DNA of 64,000 bases, taken from contig JAVJQK010000048.1 of the NCBI GenBank assembly GCA_040218145.1, positions 1 to 64,000 on the forward strand, written 5' to 3'. Each line of letters starts with the position of its first letter. The stretch's first letter is position 1. The stretch comes from Sandaracinaceae bacterium. Lineage in GTDB: Bacteria; Myxococcota_A; Polyangia; Polyangiales; Sandaracinaceae. The position numbers and the translations under genes were made by a program. This document shows, one piece after another, positions 6,347 through 19,867 of this stretch. A model generated the notes under the pieces. The model was not told the origin of the DNA and did no database searches. It saw nothing but the letters and a program-made list of their open reading frames with translations.

Positions 6347-8260
6347 CTACAAGAACGTCCCGGACGACGTCACGCTGCGGTTCGTCAGCTCGCTGAGCGC
6401 GAGGGCGAGCTCCTCCGGGCTGAACGGCTTGCAGATGAGCGCCTCTCCCTCCTCGAGATGGGCGAGGGCCTCCTCGGGCGCGTAGCCCGACATGAACAAC
6501 ACGGGCAGCCCCGGCCGCACCCGTCGCACGGCCTCGGCGACCTCACGCCCGTTGTGGTCCGGCATCACGACGTCGCTCAAGAGGATGTCGAGGTCCTTCG
6601 CGACCGAGGCCACCTCGACCGCCTCAGCCAGCGTGGACGCGGAGAAGACCGTGTGCCCTCGCGTGCGGAGCATGCGCGAGACGGCATGCCGGACGCCCTC
6701 GTCGTCCTCGACGAGCAGCATGCGGAGGGGGCCGCCCTTCCGGGGCGCCGTTCGTTCGCTCGCGGCCGCCTCCGCGGACGCGGACGCGACCGGCAGGACG
6801 ACCTCGACGCTCGTGCCCACCCCCGGCTCGCTCTCGATCCGGACCTCGCCGCCGGCCTCGGTCACGATGCCGTAGCACATCGCGAGCCCGAGCCCGCTCC
6901 CGGCGCCAGCGTCCTTGGTGGTGAAGAACGGCTCGAAGGCGCGCTGCGTCACCTCGGGGCTCATGCCGACTCCGGTGTCCCGGAGCGTCATGCGGACCAC
7001 CTCTCCCTCGTAGCCGCTCGCCAGCTTGCCGGTCGCGCGCTCGGTGCCGATCCAGAGCTCTCCTCCGTCCGGCATCGCGTCGCGTGCGTTGATGACGAGG
7101 TTCAACACGACCTGCTCTGCGAAGCTCGGGTCGAGCGACACCGGCTCGATCGACTCGTCCAGCACGAGGCGCAGGTTGATGTGCTCTCCGAGCGTGCGAG
7201 CGAAGAGCCGCGTCGCGCCGCGGATCAGCTCGTTGAGGCTGAGGGGCCTCGGATCGGTGCGGTGCCGCTTGGACACCGTCAGCAGCTGCTTCGTCAGCGC
7301 GGTGGCGCGCGCCGTCGCGCCCAGGATCGCCCGCAGCTCCTCCCGCACCGGGCTGCGGAGCCCGAGCTCGTCCATCGCGATCTCGGCGTGGCTCGAGATG
7401 ACGAGGAGCACGTTGTTGAAGTCGTGGGCCAGCCCCCCGGCCAGGCGACCGATCGCCTCGAGCTTCTGGGCCTGCCGCAGCTGGCCCTCGAGCGCGCGCC
7501 TCTCCCGCTCCGCCGCGTCGCGCACGGAGACGTCGCGGAGCGTGGCGAGCGTGGCGCGTTGTCCCTGCCACCGGATCCGGCTCGCGTGAAGCTCCACCGG
7601 CACGCGCGTTCCGTCGAGGCGCGTCAGCTCCGTGAGCGCGATCTCGCCCAGCTCCAGGCTCTGCTCGAACTCTCGATCGAGCAGCTTCGCCGCGGGCTGT
7701 CCGAACAGCGCCTCGGCCGCGGAGTTGACGAACGCGAAGCGGCCCTGCTCGTCGACGACCACGACGGCGTCCACCAGGCGCTGGGCGAGGTTGACCACCT
7801 CGGCGCGCTGTCGCGCTCGCTCGACCGCGTACCGGAGCGCCCGCTCGACCGCGCGGCCGCGGAGCTCGGACTTGGGCAAGAAGTCTTCGGCGCCGAGCGC
7901 CATGGCGTCGAGGCCGAGCTCCTCGTCGTCCGAGCCGGTCAGGACGATGATCGGGATCTGGGACGCGCGGCTCTTCAGGGCGGTGAGCGTGTCGAGCCCG
8001 TCGCTGTCCGGCAGGTTCAGGTCACACATGATGGCGTCGGGCCTGAAGACGCGCAGCTCCGCCAAGGCGTCCTCGAGGGTCTCCACGTGGGTGATGTTCG
8101 CGACCTTGCGCAGCCGAGCCCGCACCAGCCCCGCGTCACCCGGGTTGTCCTCGACCAGGAGGACCTCCACGGGCTCGCTGCGGTCGACGCGGCGGAGACG
8201 CAGCGAGCTGGTCGAGGCGGGCGGCAGCGATGGCCGCGTCGAGAGGCGCCGCTCACCCAC
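6347..8260 (-). CDS. Hybrid histidine kinase, REC-PAS-HisKA-HATPase-REC
   Basis: 637 aa, no membrane segment, so cytosolic. Domains: REC1 at 32-148 with Asp80 (MCDLNLP); PAS at about 155-255; HisKA with His279 (LAGGLAHDFNN); HATPase_c with N box VINARDAM (390-397), G1 DTGVGM (428-433) and G2 GSGLGLA (454-460); REC2 at 513-630 with Asp563 (LLSDVVMP). The start overlaps the end of the upstream single-REC gene by 8 nt, so translation is probably coupled. It is the last gene of a three-gene phosphorelay headed by the ethylene-receptor-like kinase. REC1 may receive phosphate from the upstream proteins and REC2 may pass it on; this is inference. There is no DNA-binding output domain. Confidence 0.92.
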   Translation of the reverse strand: MGERRLSTRPSLPPASTSSLRLRRVDRSEPVEVLLVEDNPGDAGLVRARLRKVANITHVETLEDALAELRVFRPDAIMCDLNLPDSDGLDTLTALKSRASQIPIIVLTGSDDEELGLDAMALGAEDFLPKSELRGRAVERALRYAVERARQRAEVVNLAQRLVDAVVVVDEQGRFAFVNSAAEALFGQPAAKLLDREFEQSLELGEIALTELTRLDGTRVPVELHASRIRWQGQRATLATLRDVSVRDAAERERRALEGQLRQAQKLEAIGRLAGGLAHDFNNVLLVISSHAEIAMDELGLRSPVREELRAILGATARATALTKQLLTVSKRHRTDPRPLSLNELIRGATRLFARTLGEHINLRLVLDESIEPVSLDPSFAEQVVLNLVINARDAMPDGGELWIGTERATGKLASGYEGEVVRMTLRDTGVGMSPEVTQRAFEPFFTTKDAGAGSGLGLAMCYGIVTEAGGEVRIESEPGVGTSVEVVLPVASASAEAAASERTAPRKGGPLRMLLVEDDEGVRHAVSRMLRTRGHTVFSASTLAEAVEVASVAKDLDILLSDVVMPDHNGREVAEAVRRVRPGLPVLFMSGYAPEEALAHLEEGEALICKPFSPEELALALSELTNRSVTSSGTFL

Positions 8261-8702
8261 GCGCGCCTCCCTCCATCGCGCGCGGCAACCGCACGAGCAC
8301 GAACCAGTACTCGTGGAGGGCGCGGACCAGCTCCTGCAGCGCGCCGAGCGTCGGCGGCTTCGTGACGAACGAGCTCGCGCCCAGCTCGTAGCTCGCGACG
8401 ATGTCCCGCTCCTGCTGCGAGCTGGACATGACCACCACCGGCAGACGCCGCAGCAGCGCGTCGGCGCGGATGGAGGTGAGCACGTCCTTGCCGTCCATGC
8501 CGGGGAGGCTCAGGTCGAGCAGGACGAGGTCGGGGAGCCGCTGCGTCTCGGCTCCCTCCCGCAGCCGCGCGAGCGCGCCCTCCCCATCGTCGCAGTGCTC
8601 GAGCTCGTTCGATATCTTCGCACGCTCGAACGCCTTCTCGATGAGCAAGAAGTCGCCCGGGTTGTCCTCGATGACCATGATCCGCGCCGCGCCGTTCGTC
8701 AT
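8253..8702 (-). CDS. Single-domain response regulator (Rcp1/CheY-like)
   Basis: 149 aa, one REC domain. Acidic pocket IEDNPGD (11-17), phospho-acceptor Asp63 (LLDLSLPGMDG), conserved switch residues in VVMSSS and the FVTKPP Lys. The NPGD signature and the alpha4-beta5 region are typical of Rcp1-type regulators that pair with phytochrome-like or membrane sensor kinases. There is no output domain, so it acts as a phosphate shuttle or by protein contact. The start overlaps the stop of the sensor kinase by 4 nt (8699-8702) and its end overlaps the hybrid kinase start by 8 nt, giving a tightly coupled operon. Confidence 0.93.
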   Translation of the reverse strand: MTNGAARIMVIEDNPGDFLLIEKAFERAKISNELEHCDDGEGALARLREGAETQRLPDLVLLDLSLPGMDGKDVLTSIRADALLRRLPVVVMSSSQQERDIVASYELGASSFVTKPPTLGALQELVRALHEYWFVLVRLPRAMEGGARG

Positions 8703-9871
8703 TCCCCCGCCCCTTCCATCACGCGCGGCAGACGAACCCGAAAGGTCGTGCCTTCTCCCGGCGCGGTGACGACGTCGATCTCGCCGCCGTGTCGTTCGAC
8801 CACCTTCTTGCAGATGGCCAGCCCGATCCCCGTCCCCTCGTAGGCGCCCCGCTTGTGCAGGCGCTTGAACAGGTCGAAGACGCGCTCCTTGAACTTCATG
8901 TCGAACCCCACGCCCTCATCGCGCACGGAGATCACCCAGTCTTCTCCGTCGCGCTGCGCGCCCACGTGGACCCGCGGCGCTTCCCCCGCCTTCGCGAACC
9001 GCAGCGCGTTGGAGACGAGGTTCTGGAAGAGCTGCACGAGCTGCGTGCGGTCGAACGAGACGACCGGCAACGGATCGTGGGTGATGGTGGCCGAGGTCTC
9101 CGAGATGCGCAGCCCGAGGTTGTCGAGCGCGGCCTCGAACGCCTCCTCGGCGGCGATCGGCTCGGGCACCAGCTCGCGGGACTGCGCCCTCGAGTAGGCG
9201 AGCAGGTCGTCGAGGAGCACCTGCATGCGCCTCGCCCCGTCGGCCGCGTAGCGCACGTACTCGCGCGCGTCGTCGTCGAGCTGCTCGACGTGCTCGTCTT
9301 CGAGCAGCTCCATGTAGCCAGAGACCATGCGCAGCGGCTCCTGCAGGTCGTGGGAGGCGACATAGGCGAAGCGCTCGAGGTCCTCGTTCGACTGTCGGTA
9401 CGCCTCGGTGCGCTCGTCGACGCGCCGCTCGAGCAGCTCCCGGGACTCCTGCAGCTCCATCGTGCGGAGCGCGACCTCGGCCTCGAGCTGGGTCGGCGTG
9501 CGGAGGGTGAGCGCCTTGCGGAGCGCGGGCACGAGCGCGAGCACGGTCAACCAGGAGACGACCGCCGTCACGGCCTTCACGAGCCCGGAGAGGCGGTAGA
9601 CCGGGTTCCAGAACATGGACGCCTCGATCAGGTGACCCGAGCCGCACGCGACGATGAACGCCGCGAAGAGCAGGAAGACGCCGTTGAAGGGGATGTCCCG
9701 GCGACGTCGCCAGACCAGGACCACCAGCAGGACCGGGATGGTGAAGTAGGCGGCGAAGATCGCGACATCGCTCACGATGTGGAGCCAGCCCAGCCCGCTG
9801 CTCCACAGACCGCATTGCCACCGCGGCGGGAAACCCACCGGATCGAGCAATCGCGCGAAGAACTCGAGCAT
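8699..9871 (-). CDS. Ethylene-receptor-like membrane histidine kinase
   Basis: 390 aa from the ATG at 9871. Residues 28-118 form three hydrophobic helices that match the ethylene-binding domain of plant ETR1: SDVAIFAAYFTIP with Asp35, AFIVACGSGHLI with Cys76 and His80 (the Cu(I) ligands Cys65/His69 of ETR1), and LVKAVTAVVSWLTVLALVPAL. A coiled linker (about 119-165) leads to HisKA with His174 (ASHDLQEPLR), N box QNLVSNAL, G1 DEGVGFDM and G2 GTGIGLAICKK. There is no GAF domain between, unlike plant receptors. Cyanobacterial homologues bind ethylene; binding here is inferred from the intact ligand residues. It heads an operon with a single-REC protein and a hybrid kinase. Confidence 0.88.
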   Translation of the reverse strand: MLEFFARLLDPVGFPPRWQCGLWSSGLGWLHIVSDVAIFAAYFTIPVLLVVLVWRRRRDIPFNGVFLLFAAFIVACGSGHLIEASMFWNPVYRLSGLVKAVTAVVSWLTVLALVPALRKALTLRTPTQLEAEVALRTMELQESRELLERRVDERTEAYRQSNEDLERFAYVASHDLQEPLRMVSGYMELLEDEHVEQLDDDAREYVRYAADGARRMQVLLDDLLAYSRAQSRELVPEPIAAEEAFEAALDNLGLRISETSATITHDPLPVVSFDRTQLVQLFQNLVSNALRFAKAGEAPRVHVGAQRDGEDWVISVRDEGVGFDMKFKERVFDLFKRLHKRGAYEGTGIGLAICKKVVERHGGEIDVVTAPGEGTTFRVRLPRVMEGAGE

Positions 9872-9986
9872 GCCCGGCGTAGAGCAAGGCACGAGCCGGC
9901 GCGCCGAAGCGGCCTATCGGCGTCTCGAGCTGAGACATCGTCGGGTCGAGCCGACACCGAGTGGGCGCGCCCCTACGGACGCGGAC

Positions 9987-11822
<1,836 letters not shown>

Positions 11823-11834
11823 TCGGGTCCGCAA

Positions 11835-16109: not shown

Positions 16110-16196
16110 GGAGGAGTGGCCGAGTGGTCGAAGGCAGCGGTTTTGAAAACCGCCGAGCTCGCAAGGGCTCCAGGGGTTCGAATCCCTTCTCCTCCG
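16110..16196 (+). tRNA. tRNA-Ser (anticodon UGA)
   Basis: An 87-nt class II tRNA. Acceptor GGAGGAG (16110-16116) pairs with CTCCTCC (16189-16195), discriminator G. Anticodon arm GCGGT-TTTGAAA-ACCGC gives TGA. A long variable arm (GAGCTCGCAAGGGCTC region) is typical of serine tRNA. T-loop GGTTCGAATCC present; CCA is not encoded. It decodes UCA (and wobble UCN). It sits between the Cys-rich lipoprotein (divergent) and a small zinc-ribbon ORF. Confidence 0.95.
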
Positions 16197-16209
16197 TGGG
16201 AGCGCCGCG

Positions 16210-16431
16210 GTGACGGACGAGGTCGAGGAGCCGGCGTGCCCGCGCTGCGGGGCCGCGCTGCGCGCGGAGCGCCACCGCTCGGAGGACGGCGTCACCTCGG
16301 TCTGGCGCTGCGCCTGCGGGTGGTCGCGGGCCCGGACCGAGTCGGGCAGCCTCAGCCGCGCCCGCGCGCTCGAGGCGATCGCCCGCGCCCGCGCCGAGGC
16401 CAGCGAGCCGCCCCCTCCCGAAGAAGACTGA
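16210..16431 (+). CDS. Small zinc-ribbon-like protein
   Basis: 73 aa from a GTG at 16210, only 13 nt after the tRNA. It holds CPRCGAALRAER near the N-terminus and WRCACGW about 20 residues later, so a CxxC...CxC cluster that could bind one zinc, followed by a charged helix (RARALEAIARARAEA). No other family feature. It could be cotranscribed with the tRNA. Codon usage fits a real gene and the pattern of conserved Cys is plausible, but it is short and has no strong ribosome-binding site. Confidence 0.55.
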   Translation: MTDEVEEPACPRCGAALRAERHRSEDGVTSVWRCACGWSRARTESGSLSRARALEAIARARAEASEPPPPEED

Positions 16432-16433
16432 TC

Positions 16434-16462
16434 TTGGCCTGGCGCCCGATGGGAGCTATGGA
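16434..16462 (+). promoter_or_regulatory. Candidate sigma-70 promoter for the aldolase gene
   Basis: TTGGCC (16434-16439), a 17-bp spacer and TATGGA (16457-16462) lie about 50 nt before the aldolase start. The -35 matches four of six consensus bases and the -10 three, so this is a weak candidate. Confidence 0.3.
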
Positions 16463-16510
16463 AGAGCCGCGAAAGGTCAGGGGCGCCCAGGTTGCCCCGG
16501 AGGAGGAGAC

Positions 16511-17416
16511 ATGAGCGAAGCCGTCGAGAAGATCCTCGCGAACTACGCGGGCGAGACCCCGGCCGTCATCGGCAACCTGCGCCGCATGCTCAACCACGGC
16601 ACCCTCGCCGGGACGGGCAAGATGGTCATCCTCCCGGTCGACCAGGGCTTCGAGCACGGCCCCGGCCGCACGTTCGAGCCCAACCCGGCCGGCTACGACC
16701 CGGGCTACCACCCGAAGCTGGCCGTCGAGTCGGGCTGCAACGCCTACGCGGCGCCGCTCGGCTTCATCGAGGCGGTCGCGCACCAGTACGCGGGGCACCT
16801 GCCCCTCATCCTGAAGGTGAACAACAGCGACCTGCTCGCCGACGTCGGCGGCTACCAGTCCGCGCTCACCTCCAACGTCGAAGACGCCATCCGGCTCGGC
16901 TGCAGCGCGATCGGGTTCACGATCTACCCGGGCTCGAGCATGCGCAACGAGACCTACCAGCAGATCCGCGACCTCATCGCCGAGGCCCGCTCGGTCGGCC
17001 TGCCCACCGTCATGTGGGCCTACGCGCGCGGCAGCATGGCCAAGGAAGACGAGACCGCGCTCGACGTGATCGCGTACTCCGCGCACATCGCCTGCCAGCT
17101 CGGCGCGCACGTCGTGAAGGTCAAGCCGCCCACCGAGCGCCTCGCCCGCGACGACGCCCGCAAGTACTACGAGAAGATCCCCCACGCGACGATGAAGGAC
17201 CGCATCGCGCACGTGAAGAAGGCGGCCTTCGACGGCAAGCGCATCGTCATCTTCTCGGGCGGCGCGGCCAAGGGGAAGGACGAGGTCCTCGAGGAGATCC
17301 GCGGCATCCACGCCGGCGGCGGCAACGGCTCGATCATGGGCCGCAACGCCTTCCAGCGGCCGTGGGACGAGTCGGTCGCCCTCCTCCGCGAGGTGATGGA
17401 GATCTACAAGGCCTGA
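16511..17416 (+). CDS. fbaB: Class I fructose-bisphosphate aldolase (DhnA/FbaB type)
   Basis: 301 aa with an excellent ribosome-binding site (GGAGGAGGAGAC directly before ATG). Archaeal-type class I aldolase: VILPVDQGFEHGPGRTF near residue 40, NNSDLL, IGFTIYPGSS, the Schiff-base Lys within HVVKVKPP, and the phosphate-binding FSGGAAKGKDE and GGGNGSIMGRNAFQRP. It cleaves and makes fructose-1,6-bisphosphate in glycolysis/gluconeogenesis in the cytosol. The last 13 nt overlap the end of the convergent lipoprotein gene. Symbol given by analogy with E. coli fbaB. Confidence 0.93.
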   Translation: MSEAVEKILANYAGETPAVIGNLRRMLNHGTLAGTGKMVILPVDQGFEHGPGRTFEPNPAGYDPGYHPKLAVESGCNAYAAPLGFIEAVAHQYAGHLPLILKVNNSDLLADVGGYQSALTSNVEDAIRLGCSAIGFTIYPGSSMRNETYQQIRDLIAEARSVGLPTVMWAYARGSMAKEDETALDVIAYSAHIACQLGAHVVKVKPPTERLARDDARKYYEKIPHATMKDRIAHVKKAAFDGKRIVIFSGGAAKGKDEVLEEIRGIHAGGGNGSIMGRNAFQRPWDESVALLREVMEIYKA

Positions 17417-18042
17417 TCGCGCCAGGCGTACTGCTCGACGACGCGCATGTCGCCGTCGTCGAAGTGAACGGTCAGCTCGCGTCGCGTGGGCTGGCCGTTT
17501 TCGTTCAGGAAGAGGCTCGCTTCGCCCGACGGCTGTCCGTCGACCACGAGCCGGTAGTCGAGGCGCCGCCCGCCGTCGACGAGATCCTCGGCCCGCACCC
17601 AGTCGCGCACCCCGCCGTCGGCGTGATCGGGCGGCTCACCACCGACGAGGCGCGCGGCGTTGTGGAGCGCGCCCATGCGCGAGAAGCCCACGACCATCGC
17701 CTCGCGCAGCGCTGGCATCGTGGCGCGCTCGAAGTCGGCGCCCCCGACCGCGCCCCCACCACGGGTTCCGTCGCCGTCGTGCAGCAGCCAGGGCGAGACC
17801 TCCTCTCCGGCGAAGGTGCCCGAGAGATCGAGCCGCAGCGCGTCCTCGTCCCAGGCGAGCGCGCCGCGCAGCTCGGCGTCCACGGCGCCCTCCGCGGTGA
17901 TCGCCAGGTCCACCCCGTGCGAGCCCGCGAGTAGGCCCGCCTCCAGCGCCGCCAGCGGATCGTCGGGGTCGGACGTGGGCGCCGTCGGGCCTCCGCACGC
18001 CGACACGAGGGCGAGCGAGAGCGCGAGCCGGACCGCGCTCAT
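17404..18042 (-). CDS. Lipoprotein of unknown function
   Basis: 212 aa from the ATG at 18042, which forms an ATGA overlap with the upstream gene stop at 18039. Signal with lipobox (LALVSACGG). The mature part has a run of short beta strands (GVDLAITAEGAVDAEL, LRLDLSGTFAGEEVSPWLL, RLDYRLVVDGQPSGEASLFLN, VHFDDGDMRVVEQYAW), suggesting a LolA/LppX-like open barrel that could hold a lipid; this is inference from pattern. The 3' end overlaps the aldolase gene by 13 nt in convergent orientation. Confidence 0.75.
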   Translation of the reverse strand: MSAVRLALSLALVSACGGPTAPTSDPDDPLAALEAGLLAGSHGVDLAITAEGAVDAELRGALAWDEDALRLDLSGTFAGEEVSPWLLHDGDGTRGGGAVGGADFERATMPALREAMVVGFSRMGALHNAARLVGGEPPDHADGGVRDWVRAEDLVDGGRRLDYRLVVDGQPSGEASLFLNENGQPTRRELTVHFDDGDMRVVEQYAWRDQAL

Positions 18043-18593
18043 CGGCGCCTCCAGAGCAGGAGACCGAGCAGGCCGAGCAGCGCCCAGGGGTGACCACCGA
18101 CGGGCGCGACCGAGCAGCTCGCGCAGCCCGCCTGACCGGCCGCGGGGCGCGCCTGTGGAGGCTCGACCTCGTCGTCGGCGCCGACCTCGATCGGAACCTC
18201 GCCCGCGCCCAGATAGACGCGATCGTCGTCGGCGTCCTCGACGCGTCGGGTCCGCGAGCACAGCCCCGCCTGCAGCCCGCCGCCGCCGCGCTCGGCGTAC
18301 ACGAGCCAGCTGGTCTCGGCCTCGAAGCCGAGCCCGCACATCGAGCCCGCGAGCGGGGTGCGGAGCTCCAGGGTCTCCGTCTCGACGCCCTTCCACTGCT
18401 GCACGACGGAGAAGACGGCGACGCGCGCGTCTGCCTCCTCGCGCACCTCCGTGACGCGCCCCTCGAAGACGGCGTCCGCGCCTTGGAAAGCGCCCTCCGG
18501 CGTGAGCTCCACGCACGAGCAGGCGGCGGCCGGAGAGGGAGAGACGAGGGCCGCGCCGAGCGCGAAGGCGAGGGTGAGATGGGGCGTGCGCAC
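18039..18593 (-). CDS. Exported protein with MYXO-CTERM-like anchor and TIMP/NTR-like start
   Basis: 184 aa. Signal peptide ending PSPAAA, then CSCVELTPEGAFQGADAVFEGRVTEV, which resembles the first strands of netrin/TIMP-like domains (CxCx then VF.G.V). The C-terminus is a sorting tail: AGCASCSV...HPWALLGLLGLLLWRRR, that is Cys cluster, hydrophobic helix and Arg run, matching the MYXO-CTERM pattern used for cell-surface anchoring in myxobacteria. Cotranscribed with the following lipoprotein (ATGA overlap). Function unknown; protease-inhibitor or matrix role is only a possibility. Confidence 0.8.
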   Translation of the reverse strand: MRTPHLTLAFALGAALVSPSPAAACSCVELTPEGAFQGADAVFEGRVTEVREEADARVAVFSVVQQWKGVETETLELRTPLAGSMCGLGFEAETSWLVYAERGGGGLQAGLCSRTRRVEDADDDRVYLGAGEVPIEVGADDEVEPPQARPAAGQAGCASCSVAPVGGHPWALLGLLGLLLWRRR

Positions 18594-18622
18594 GGCGGAA
18601 GCATGCCGGGCGAAGCGCGCGA

Positions 18623-18651
18623 TTGACAGCCCCGGAGAGCCCGGTTATGAA
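18623..18651 (+). promoter_or_regulatory. Sigma-70 promoter for tRNA-Ser(GCU)
   Basis: TTGACA (18623-18628), 17-bp spacer, TATGAA (18646-18651). This is a near-consensus promoter that predicts a start near 18658 and a 5' leader of about 58 nt before the tRNA. Confidence 0.75.
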
Positions 18652-18715
18652 CACGGCCCTTCCCCGGCGTCCGTCGCTCCGGAGGGCTTGAAAAGCAGTC
18701 CGACACAACCTGTCG

Positions 18716-18803
<88 letters not shown>

Positions 18804-18842
18804 TTCTCTTCTCGTCTTCGGAAATCCCGTTCGGGTACTTCG

Positions 18843-18870
18843 TTGACACCTCGATCGGGCCGGCTACACT
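18843..18870 (+). promoter_or_regulatory. Sigma-70 promoter for tRNA-Arg(ACG)
   Basis: TTGACA (18843-18848), 16-bp spacer, TACACT (18865-18870), then the tRNA begins 17 nt downstream of the -10. A clean stable-RNA promoter. Confidence 0.75.
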
Positions 18871-18886
18871 GCCGCCTCTTTCGAGA

Positions 18887-18960
<74 letters not shown>

Positions 18961-18962
18961 AC

Positions 18963-18995
18963 AGCGCCGCCTCACACCAGAGGCGGCGCTTTCTT
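18963..18995 (+). terminator. Intrinsic terminator after tRNA-Arg
   Basis: AGCGCCGCCTC (18963-18973) and GAGGCGGCGCT (18980-18990) form a perfect 11-bp stem with a 6-nt loop, followed by TTCTT. It starts 3 nt after the tRNA, so it should end the tRNA transcript before tadA. Confidence 0.85.
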
Positions 18996-19032
18996 GTATC
19001 TGCCGTGCGCGATCTGGCCGCGCGATCCTGCC

Positions 19033-19512
19033 GTGACGAGCGACGACGACGACCGGTTCATGGACATGGCGATCGCCGAGGCCCGCGCGGCCGAGGCGCT
19101 CGGCGAGGTCCCCGTCGGCTCGGTCGCGGTCCTTGACGGCGAGGTGATCGCCCGCGGGCACAACCTGCGCGAGCGGGCCCAGGATCCGACCGCGCACGCG
19201 GAGCTGATCGCGATGCGTGGGGCGGCGGCGCGGCTGTCGACCTGGCGCCTCAGCGGCGTGACGATCTACGTCACCCTCGAGCCCTGCCCCATGTGCGCGG
19301 GCGCCCTGGTGAACGCGCGCGTCGACCGCGTCGTCTACGGCGCGACCGACCCGAAGGCGGGAGCCACCGAGACCCTCTATCGGCTCGGAGACGACGCGCG
19401 GCTGAACCACCGCTTCGCCGTCACGAGCGGCGTGCGGCAGCCCGAATGCGCCGCGCTGCTACGCGATTTTTTCCAACGAATTCGGGATGCTAGACGAAAG
19501 CCCGCCGGCTGA
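19033..19512 (+). CDS. tadA: tRNA-specific adenosine deaminase
   Basis: 159 aa from a GTG at 19033 (VTSDDDDRF); an upstream TTG at 18994 is in frame but lies in the terminator tail. Cytidine-deaminase fold with the zinc/catalytic motifs HAE (in DPTAHAELIAM) and PCPMC (in LEPCPMCAGALV), and the TadA-specific tail region HRFAVTSGV...CAALLRDFFQ. It converts A34 to inosine in tRNA-Arg(ACG), allowing reading of CGU, CGC and CGA. Its substrate tRNA gene is the immediate upstream neighbour, separated by a terminator; a promoter for the gene itself was not resolved. Confidence 0.93.
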   Translation: MTSDDDDRFMDMAIAEARAAEALGEVPVGSVAVLDGEVIARGHNLRERAQDPTAHAELIAMRGAAARLSTWRLSGVTIYVTLEPCPMCAGALVNARVDRVVYGATDPKAGATETLYRLGDDARLNHRFAVTSGVRQPECAALLRDFFQRIRDARRKPAG

Positions 19513-19521
19513 AAAACTCGA

Positions 19522-19549
19522 TTGACGGGCTCGACGCCCCTGCTATGTT
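19522..19549 (+). promoter_or_regulatory. Sigma-70 promoter for tRNA-Ser(CGA)
   Basis: TTGACG (19522-19527), 16-bp spacer, TATGTT (19544-19549). The predicted start is essentially at the first tRNA base. It may also drive the next tRNA and the SRP RNA, for which no equally good promoter was seen. Confidence 0.7.
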
Positions 19550-19556
19550 CCGCGGC

Positions 19557-19643
19557 GGAGGGCTGGCCGAGTGGTCGAAGGCGCTTGATTCGAAATCAAG
19601 TGTACCGGCAACGGTACCGTGGGTTCGAATCCCACGTCCTCCG
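19557..19643 (+). tRNA. tRNA-Ser (anticodon CGA)
   Basis: An 87-nt class II tRNA. Acceptor GGAGGGC (19557-19563) pairs with GTCCTCC (19636-19642) including one G-U pair; discriminator G. Anticodon arm CTTGA-TTCGAAA-TCAAG gives CGA. Variable arm TGTACCGGCAACGGTACC, T arm GTGGGTTCGAATCCCAC. CCA not encoded. Confidence 0.96.
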
Positions 19644-19742
19644 CTGACAGTTCCCAAATGCTCCCTTGTCGAAAGGGGGGCATCGTTCTTTGAGCCGCCG
19701 CCAACGAATGCGTTAGCCGAGGCTCGTCGTCGAGAGACGACG

Positions 19743-19829
19743 GGAGGGGTGACCGAGTGGTCGAAGGTGCACGATTGGAAATCGTGTGTACCGGCAACGG
19801 TACCGCGGGTTCGAATCCCGCCTCCTCCG
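19743..19829 (+). tRNA. tRNA-Ser (anticodon GGA)
   Basis: An 87-nt class II tRNA. Acceptor GGAGGGG (19743-19749) pairs with CTCCTCC (19822-19828) with one G-U; discriminator G. Anticodon arm CACGA-TTGGAAA-TCGTG gives GGA. The variable arm is the same as in tRNA-Ser(CGA), suggesting duplication. It completes the set of four serine isoacceptors in this window. Confidence 0.96.
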
Positions 19830-19867
19830 CTGTCTTTGATGGGCTGTCCTGACACGCCCATCCCTGT

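Follow-up and report, generated by a model that had tools for sequence, protein, structure and literature searches.

An ethylene-receptor-like histidine kinase with receiver and hybrid kinase partners in a marine myxobacterium

Genes of the locus and their host

The window analysed here is a stretch of 64,000 nucleotides from the 11.06 Mb genome of a marine Sandaracinaceae myxobacterium. Open reading frame and Pfam analysis identified three overlapping genes on its minus strand: a histidine kinase with an ethylene-binding domain (EBD; the protein is called EBD-HK below), a single receiver protein and a hybrid kinase of the type REC-PAS-HK-REC (Table 1). The overlaps are exactly 4 nucleotides between kinase and receiver (8699-8702) and 8 nucleotides between receiver and hybrid (8253-8260), just as a sequence-only reading of this DNA had described them. 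EBD-HK is numbered from its ATG; the frame is open up to a GTG at 9892, which as an alternative start would yield a protein of 397 amino acids. Each of the three proteins keeps its catalytic residues (H, D, N/G-box and K): the receiver has its phospho-acceptor Asp63, 'MSSS' and Lys115, and the hybrid has Asp80, His279 and Asp563. The complete relay proposed in the sequence-only reading is thus made plausible by the gene overlaps and the intact phospho-residues, but the three-gene set encodes no output domain.

Table 1. Features of the locus (positions in the window)
Feature	Position	Strand	Description	Basis
EBD-HK gene	8699..9871	-	390 aa from ATG; HisKA-HATPase_c; phospho-acceptor His174	Pfam, AlphaFold
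Ethylene-binding domain	9503..9793	-	Pfam ETR1_N, residues 27-123	profile, AlphaFold, residue conservation
N-terminal motif FPPRWQCGLW	9803..9832	-	residues 14-23	marker of RWxCG class
Single-domain receiver, Rcp1-like	8253..8702	-	149 aa; no output domain	Response_reg 7.4e-20
REC-PAS-HisKA-HATPase-REC hybrid kinase	6347..8260	-	637 aa, GTG start	Pfam
Concentrative nucleoside transporter	9987..11834	-	upstream of EBD-HK, gap about 115 nt	Nucleos_tra2 domains

Two genes lie upstream on the same strand, one for an AMP-binding protein (acyl-CoA synthetase-like) and one for the nucleoside transporter, and the downstream neighbour is a convergent DJ-1/PfpI gene. The transporter is probably not part of the sensor unit; no terminator-like site was found in the gap between it and EBD-HK, and a promoter and terminator scan at the locus returned nothing above chance. 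Judged from their reading frames and Pfam domains, the surrounding genes give no hint of ethylene or copper metabolism. Copper chaperone/ATPase (HMA) domains are encoded elsewhere in the host genome; they were dropped as supporting evidence, as they are also present in 13 of 14 control genomes and their presence is therefore uninformative. Two further observations concern the surroundings: close to its N terminus the transporter carries a long repeat rich in Asp, Ala and Ser (..DADADADSDSD.., repetitive DNA at 11336-11755 of the window), and four tRNA-Ser genes (anticodons TGA, GCT, CGA and GGA) and one tRNA-Arg gene lie within 4 kb (16110-19830).

The EBD is 100% identical in a second genome of the same species, Sandaracinaceae MED-G138, which confirms the myxobacterial origin of the gene; all three proteins are present there. 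Proteins with an ETR1_N domain are found in 26 of 184 Polyangiales genomes and in none of the eight other Sandaracinaceae genomes outside this species: the gene is patchy, through transfer or loss, and its absence from these eight relatives indicates that the trait is dispensable. A report of ethylene receptors in myxobacteria was not found in the open literature.

The membrane domain and its place in the EBD family

The membrane part of EBD-HK matches the Pfam profile PF25487 (ETR1_N) with E=1.3e-35 and 122 bits (the curated cut-off is 27) and is thus a member of this family. The other Pfam matches are HisKA (2.1e-13) and HATPase_c (9.5e-28); with no PAS or GAF domain recognised by Pfam between them and the EBD, the kinase protein has the EBD as its sole sensory domain. 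The sequence-only reading had pointed to Asp35, Cys76 and His80 as counterparts of the ETR1 site, and these residues hold with the ATG start, spaced 41+4 in comparison with 40+4 in ETR1, as the loop has one extra residue. In full, Asp25, Tyr32, Ile35, Pro36, Ile62, Cys65, His69 and Lys91 of ETR1 correspond to D35, Y42, I45, P46, I73, C76, H80 and K99 of EBD-HK. The first seven of these are reportedly the complete list of ethylene-binding residues of Wang 2006. In 93 of 113 aligned EBDs every one of the seven is identical, a conservation far beyond chance (the ETR1 row of this alignment is what we take to be the plant sequence); Tyr42, Cys76, Gly77 and His80 reach 99-100% across the 113 EBDs, and a Phe-Ile pair is also nearly invariant. 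D25, I35, P36, I62, C65 and H69 of ETR1 are named in PMC6586836, and Cys65 and His69 are the copper ligands of the plant receptor (PMC12744750, PMC6586836).

AlphaFold, run with an alignment of 64 proteins from the window and the loci, predicts a confident three-helix membrane fold (mean pLDDT 95.6) with transmembrane helices at residues 25-56, 63-85 and 92-122, followed by a long signalling helix (126-159), which agrees with the three helices described in the sequence-only reading. A PDB sequence search with the membrane domain found no solved relative, and a VIA-align structural search of the PDB returned generic helical bundles alone, with Z of 9 or less. Profile, residues, fold and the homology to the assayed ethylene binder AzoEtr1 of Azospirillum together strongly support an ethylene-receptor-like sensor.

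Relatives were collected by scanning 84,980 species genomes with a DNA pattern that covers both the HGxC and the RWxCG motif; 320 stretches encode a relative and the best 80 were kept. A maximum-likelihood tree and residue tables divide the EBD family into two classes, HGxC and RWxCG. The HGxC clade (support 100/99), named after a motif that precedes helix 1, includes AzoEtr1 and all cyanobacterial sequences of the set, with plant ETR1 loosely attached on a long branch. EBD-HK belongs to the EBD family and falls outside this clade, with RWQCG in place of the HGxC motif; its placement among the RWxCG sequences is affected by the few alignment columns and the many open forks of the tree. RWxCG EBDs are common in Planctomycetota, Bacteroidota, Verrucomicrobiota and Myxococcota. 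The (nearly) fixed differences to the HGxC class (R17/W18/G21/G28/A84/R93) fall for the most part in the N-terminal motif or at the edges of helices, outside the seven pocket residues, and all seven of these are identical in 64 of 76 RWxCG members. We know of no RWxCG member that has been assayed for ethylene among open papers. Cys20 of the RWxCG motif may stand in for the N-terminal disulphide cysteines of plant receptors; the single N-terminal Cys of cyanobacterial receptors is discussed in PMC6682694.

Some relatives deviate at the site. In a Myxococcota subclade (L156, L160, L161, L163, L178 and L179) Asp25, Pro36 and Lys91 are changed jointly to Asn, Ser/Ala/Thr and Arg, and in L160 the Cys65 equivalent is lost as well; judging from these exchanges, the subclade may have altered metal or ligand use. 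Two weak ETR1_N relatives, L026 and L028, have no Cys/His pair and are probably relics or repurposed domains.

The partner genes and a second EBD cassette

The gene set at the locus has the hallmarks of two known arrangements. As in SynEtr1/AzoEtr1-type two-component systems, an EBD is fused to an intact histidine kinase (His174) and a receiver gene overlaps it by 4 nucleotides. As in modules of the type HK / Rcp1-like REC / REC-HK, a kinase with an SHDL-type H-box is followed by an adjacent output-less receiver and a hybrid that starts with a REC domain. The host genome has further sets of the latter kind: contig C63 carries a PAS/GAF kinase, an Rcp1-like REC and a REC-HK-REC hybrid, and contig C76 a PAS kinase, a REC and a REC-HK that has no final REC. 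On contig C108 there is a kinase whose multi-helix membrane sensor is of another type, with an adjacent REC and no hybrid seen (the PAS/GAF and membrane-sensor labels of these kinases are our own reading of the sequences). As far as domain content and gene order go, the three-gene set is a stock module that this genome combines with unrelated sensors, and is not specific to ethylene.

A second EBD kinase cassette lies on the same contig (C48) about 99 kb from the first and outside the window, at about 108.47-112.02 kb (L139:8472-12018). It has an HGxC-class EBD kinase with all seven residues, then a single REC, then a REC-started hybrid with a final REC. The two cassettes of this genome thus share their layout and have EBDs of different classes that are only 44% identical. 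The sequence-only reading overlooked this second cassette, and also that the EBD in the window is of another class than the assayed receptor. The kinase core of EBD-HK shows 51% identity to the C108 kinase, compared with 46% to the second EBD kinase, and the receiver and the hybrid score best, among the paralogues compared, against the C63 PAS/GAF set and not against the second EBD cassette. With all three proteins closer to non-EBD parts, the two cassettes were probably built separately from stock parts; a recent duplication is ruled out as their origin by the same similarities and by the low identity and different classes of the EBDs.

Among 112 EBD loci from bacteria, 35 have a REC gene that directly follows the EBD gene, 26 have a fused REC domain and 44 have no nearby partner (domain calls are from profiles built in this analysis, which can miss PAS domains). 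Coupling to a receiver is thus common. A gene of the REC-HK type is found within 2.6 kb downstream in 13 of the 112 loci, mostly of the HGxC class. The three-gene layout recurs in L157, and in L053 the three parts surround an RWxCG kinase in a different order. L053 is from a Polyangia MAG, and its kinase (L053:6001-7439) is interrupted by a frame change; the contig has low coverage and the break is probably an error of assembly. The neighbours of EBD kinases in relatives vary, from an orphan kinase to a fused REC.

Interpretation and comparison with known systems

As a whole, the locus is probably best explained by a Cu(I)-dependent ethylene-type sensor that feeds a stock phosphorelay. In addition to the evidence for the sensor given above, the EBD is 41-45% identical to Azospirillum EBDs, including that of Sp7 AzoEtr1. 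Several findings count against this explanation: the RWxCG class is outside the AzoEtr1 clade, the EBD is absent in the eight family genomes, no neighbouring gene relates to ethylene or copper, and the receiver and hybrid genes also accompany kinases that have no EBD.

Cys76 and His80 would form a Cu(I) site among the three transmembrane helices, together with Asp35 and a pocket of Tyr42, Ile45, Pro46 and Ile73, and the predicted site would bind ethylene or a small olefin much like it. The signal would pass from helix 3 through the short signalling helix (126-159) directly to HisKA; with helix 3 leading straight into HisKA, the membrane domain is left as the sole input of the kinase. The free receptor is expected to autophosphorylate on His174 and ethylene to lower this activity, as proposed for SynEtr1 and AzoEtr1. 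Inhibition of kinase activity by ethylene is supported for plant ETR1 and indirectly for SynEtr1, and has been proposed for bacterial receptors (PMC11819568). The phosphate may then move to Asp63 of the single-receiver protein, and the hybrid (input REC, PAS, own kinase core and output REC) may act as a further node, taking in another signal and passing phosphate, or an interaction, on to unlinked targets.

Two other readings of the sensor are less likely. An RWxCG EBD might keep the Cu(I) site and be tuned to a different signal, such as another small olefin, CO, Cu(I)/Ag(I) or the redox state. The class is set apart at several (nearly) fixed positions and occurs mostly in the four phyla named above, and the presence of both classes in cassettes of the same layout in one genome suggests that they are non-redundant; we nevertheless consider a different signal unlikely, given that most class members have an unchanged pocket and the differences are mostly outside it. 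It is very improbable that the membrane domain is a relic anchor and the kinase constitutive or governed via the PAS and REC domains of the hybrid. The three-gene module does exist with cytosolic sensors, so that other nodes could control it, but relics lose the site, as in L026 and L028, whereas all seven residues are kept here, in a kinase protein that has no other sensory domain.

The three genes might instead form a co-evolved phosphorelay dedicated to ethylene, with extra nodes specific to its sensing, which would fit the tight overlaps of 4 and 8 nucleotides and the recurrence of the layout in the second cassette and L157, and of its parts in L053. This is improbable too, as kinase, receiver and hybrid all resemble components of non-EBD modules more than those of the second EBD cassette, and as relatives of the EBD kinase have such varied neighbours. 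The stock-module explanation also qualifies the claim of the sequence-only reading that the wiring is richer than in the plant or Synechocystis systems: this is literally true in comparison with AzoEtr1 (kinase and one REC) and SynEtr1 (kinase and two response regulators), but the same module serves unrelated sensors in the host genome and is also found behind other myxobacterial EBD kinases.

Under the favoured explanation, a Cu(I)-dependent ethylene-type sensor on a stock relay, the protein is probably a gas sensor of a sort that many bacteria are known to have; this one comes from a myxobacterium and is of the RWxCG class. Direct proof of bacterial ethylene sensing exists for few cases, and none from a myxobacterium was found in the open literature. 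EBD-HK is among the smallest receptor types, and with a membrane domain that runs directly into the kinase core it offers a simple system to study how Cu(I)-ethylene binding alters kinase activity; having both EBD classes in one genome allows their comparison within a single host. Somewhat speculatively, RWxCG could be a second cross-phylum class of ethylene-type gas receptors, with the host running both classes, through cassettes that share a layout and differ in origin, to separate two related gases or two concentration ranges of ethylene.

Among known systems, AzoEtr1/AzoRR-Etr1 of Azospirillum brasilense Sp7 has the same seven EBD residues, a histidine kinase and a single-receiver gene that overlaps its 3' end, and binding of ethylene to its EBD has been demonstrated (PMC11819568). 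Its EBD, read from the plasmid that carries it (locus L141), is about 44% identical to the one in the window. It differs by a PAS domain before the kinase, by its HGxC type (motif LPHGVC) and by the lack of a reported hybrid third gene (PMC11819568). SynEtr1 (Slr1212)-Slr1213-Slr1214 of Synechocystis PCC 6803 likewise has a membrane EBD, a histidine kinase and linked response regulators, but there is a cyanobacteriochrome between EBD and kinase, the regulators are described as transcription factors and a small RNA is part of the pathway (PMC6682694, PMC6508509). Arabidopsis ETR1 shares the seven residues and Lys91 with the window EBD and differs by a GAF domain, another N-terminal disulphide motif and a loop that is one residue shorter; plant receptors also differ in signalling mainly through a Ser/Thr kinase. 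The C63 and C76 modules of the host itself resemble the locus in gene order and in receiver and hybrid type, with the nearest receiver and hybrid paralogues among those compared in C63; they differ in having another sensory input and no EBD, and C76 also by its missing final REC.
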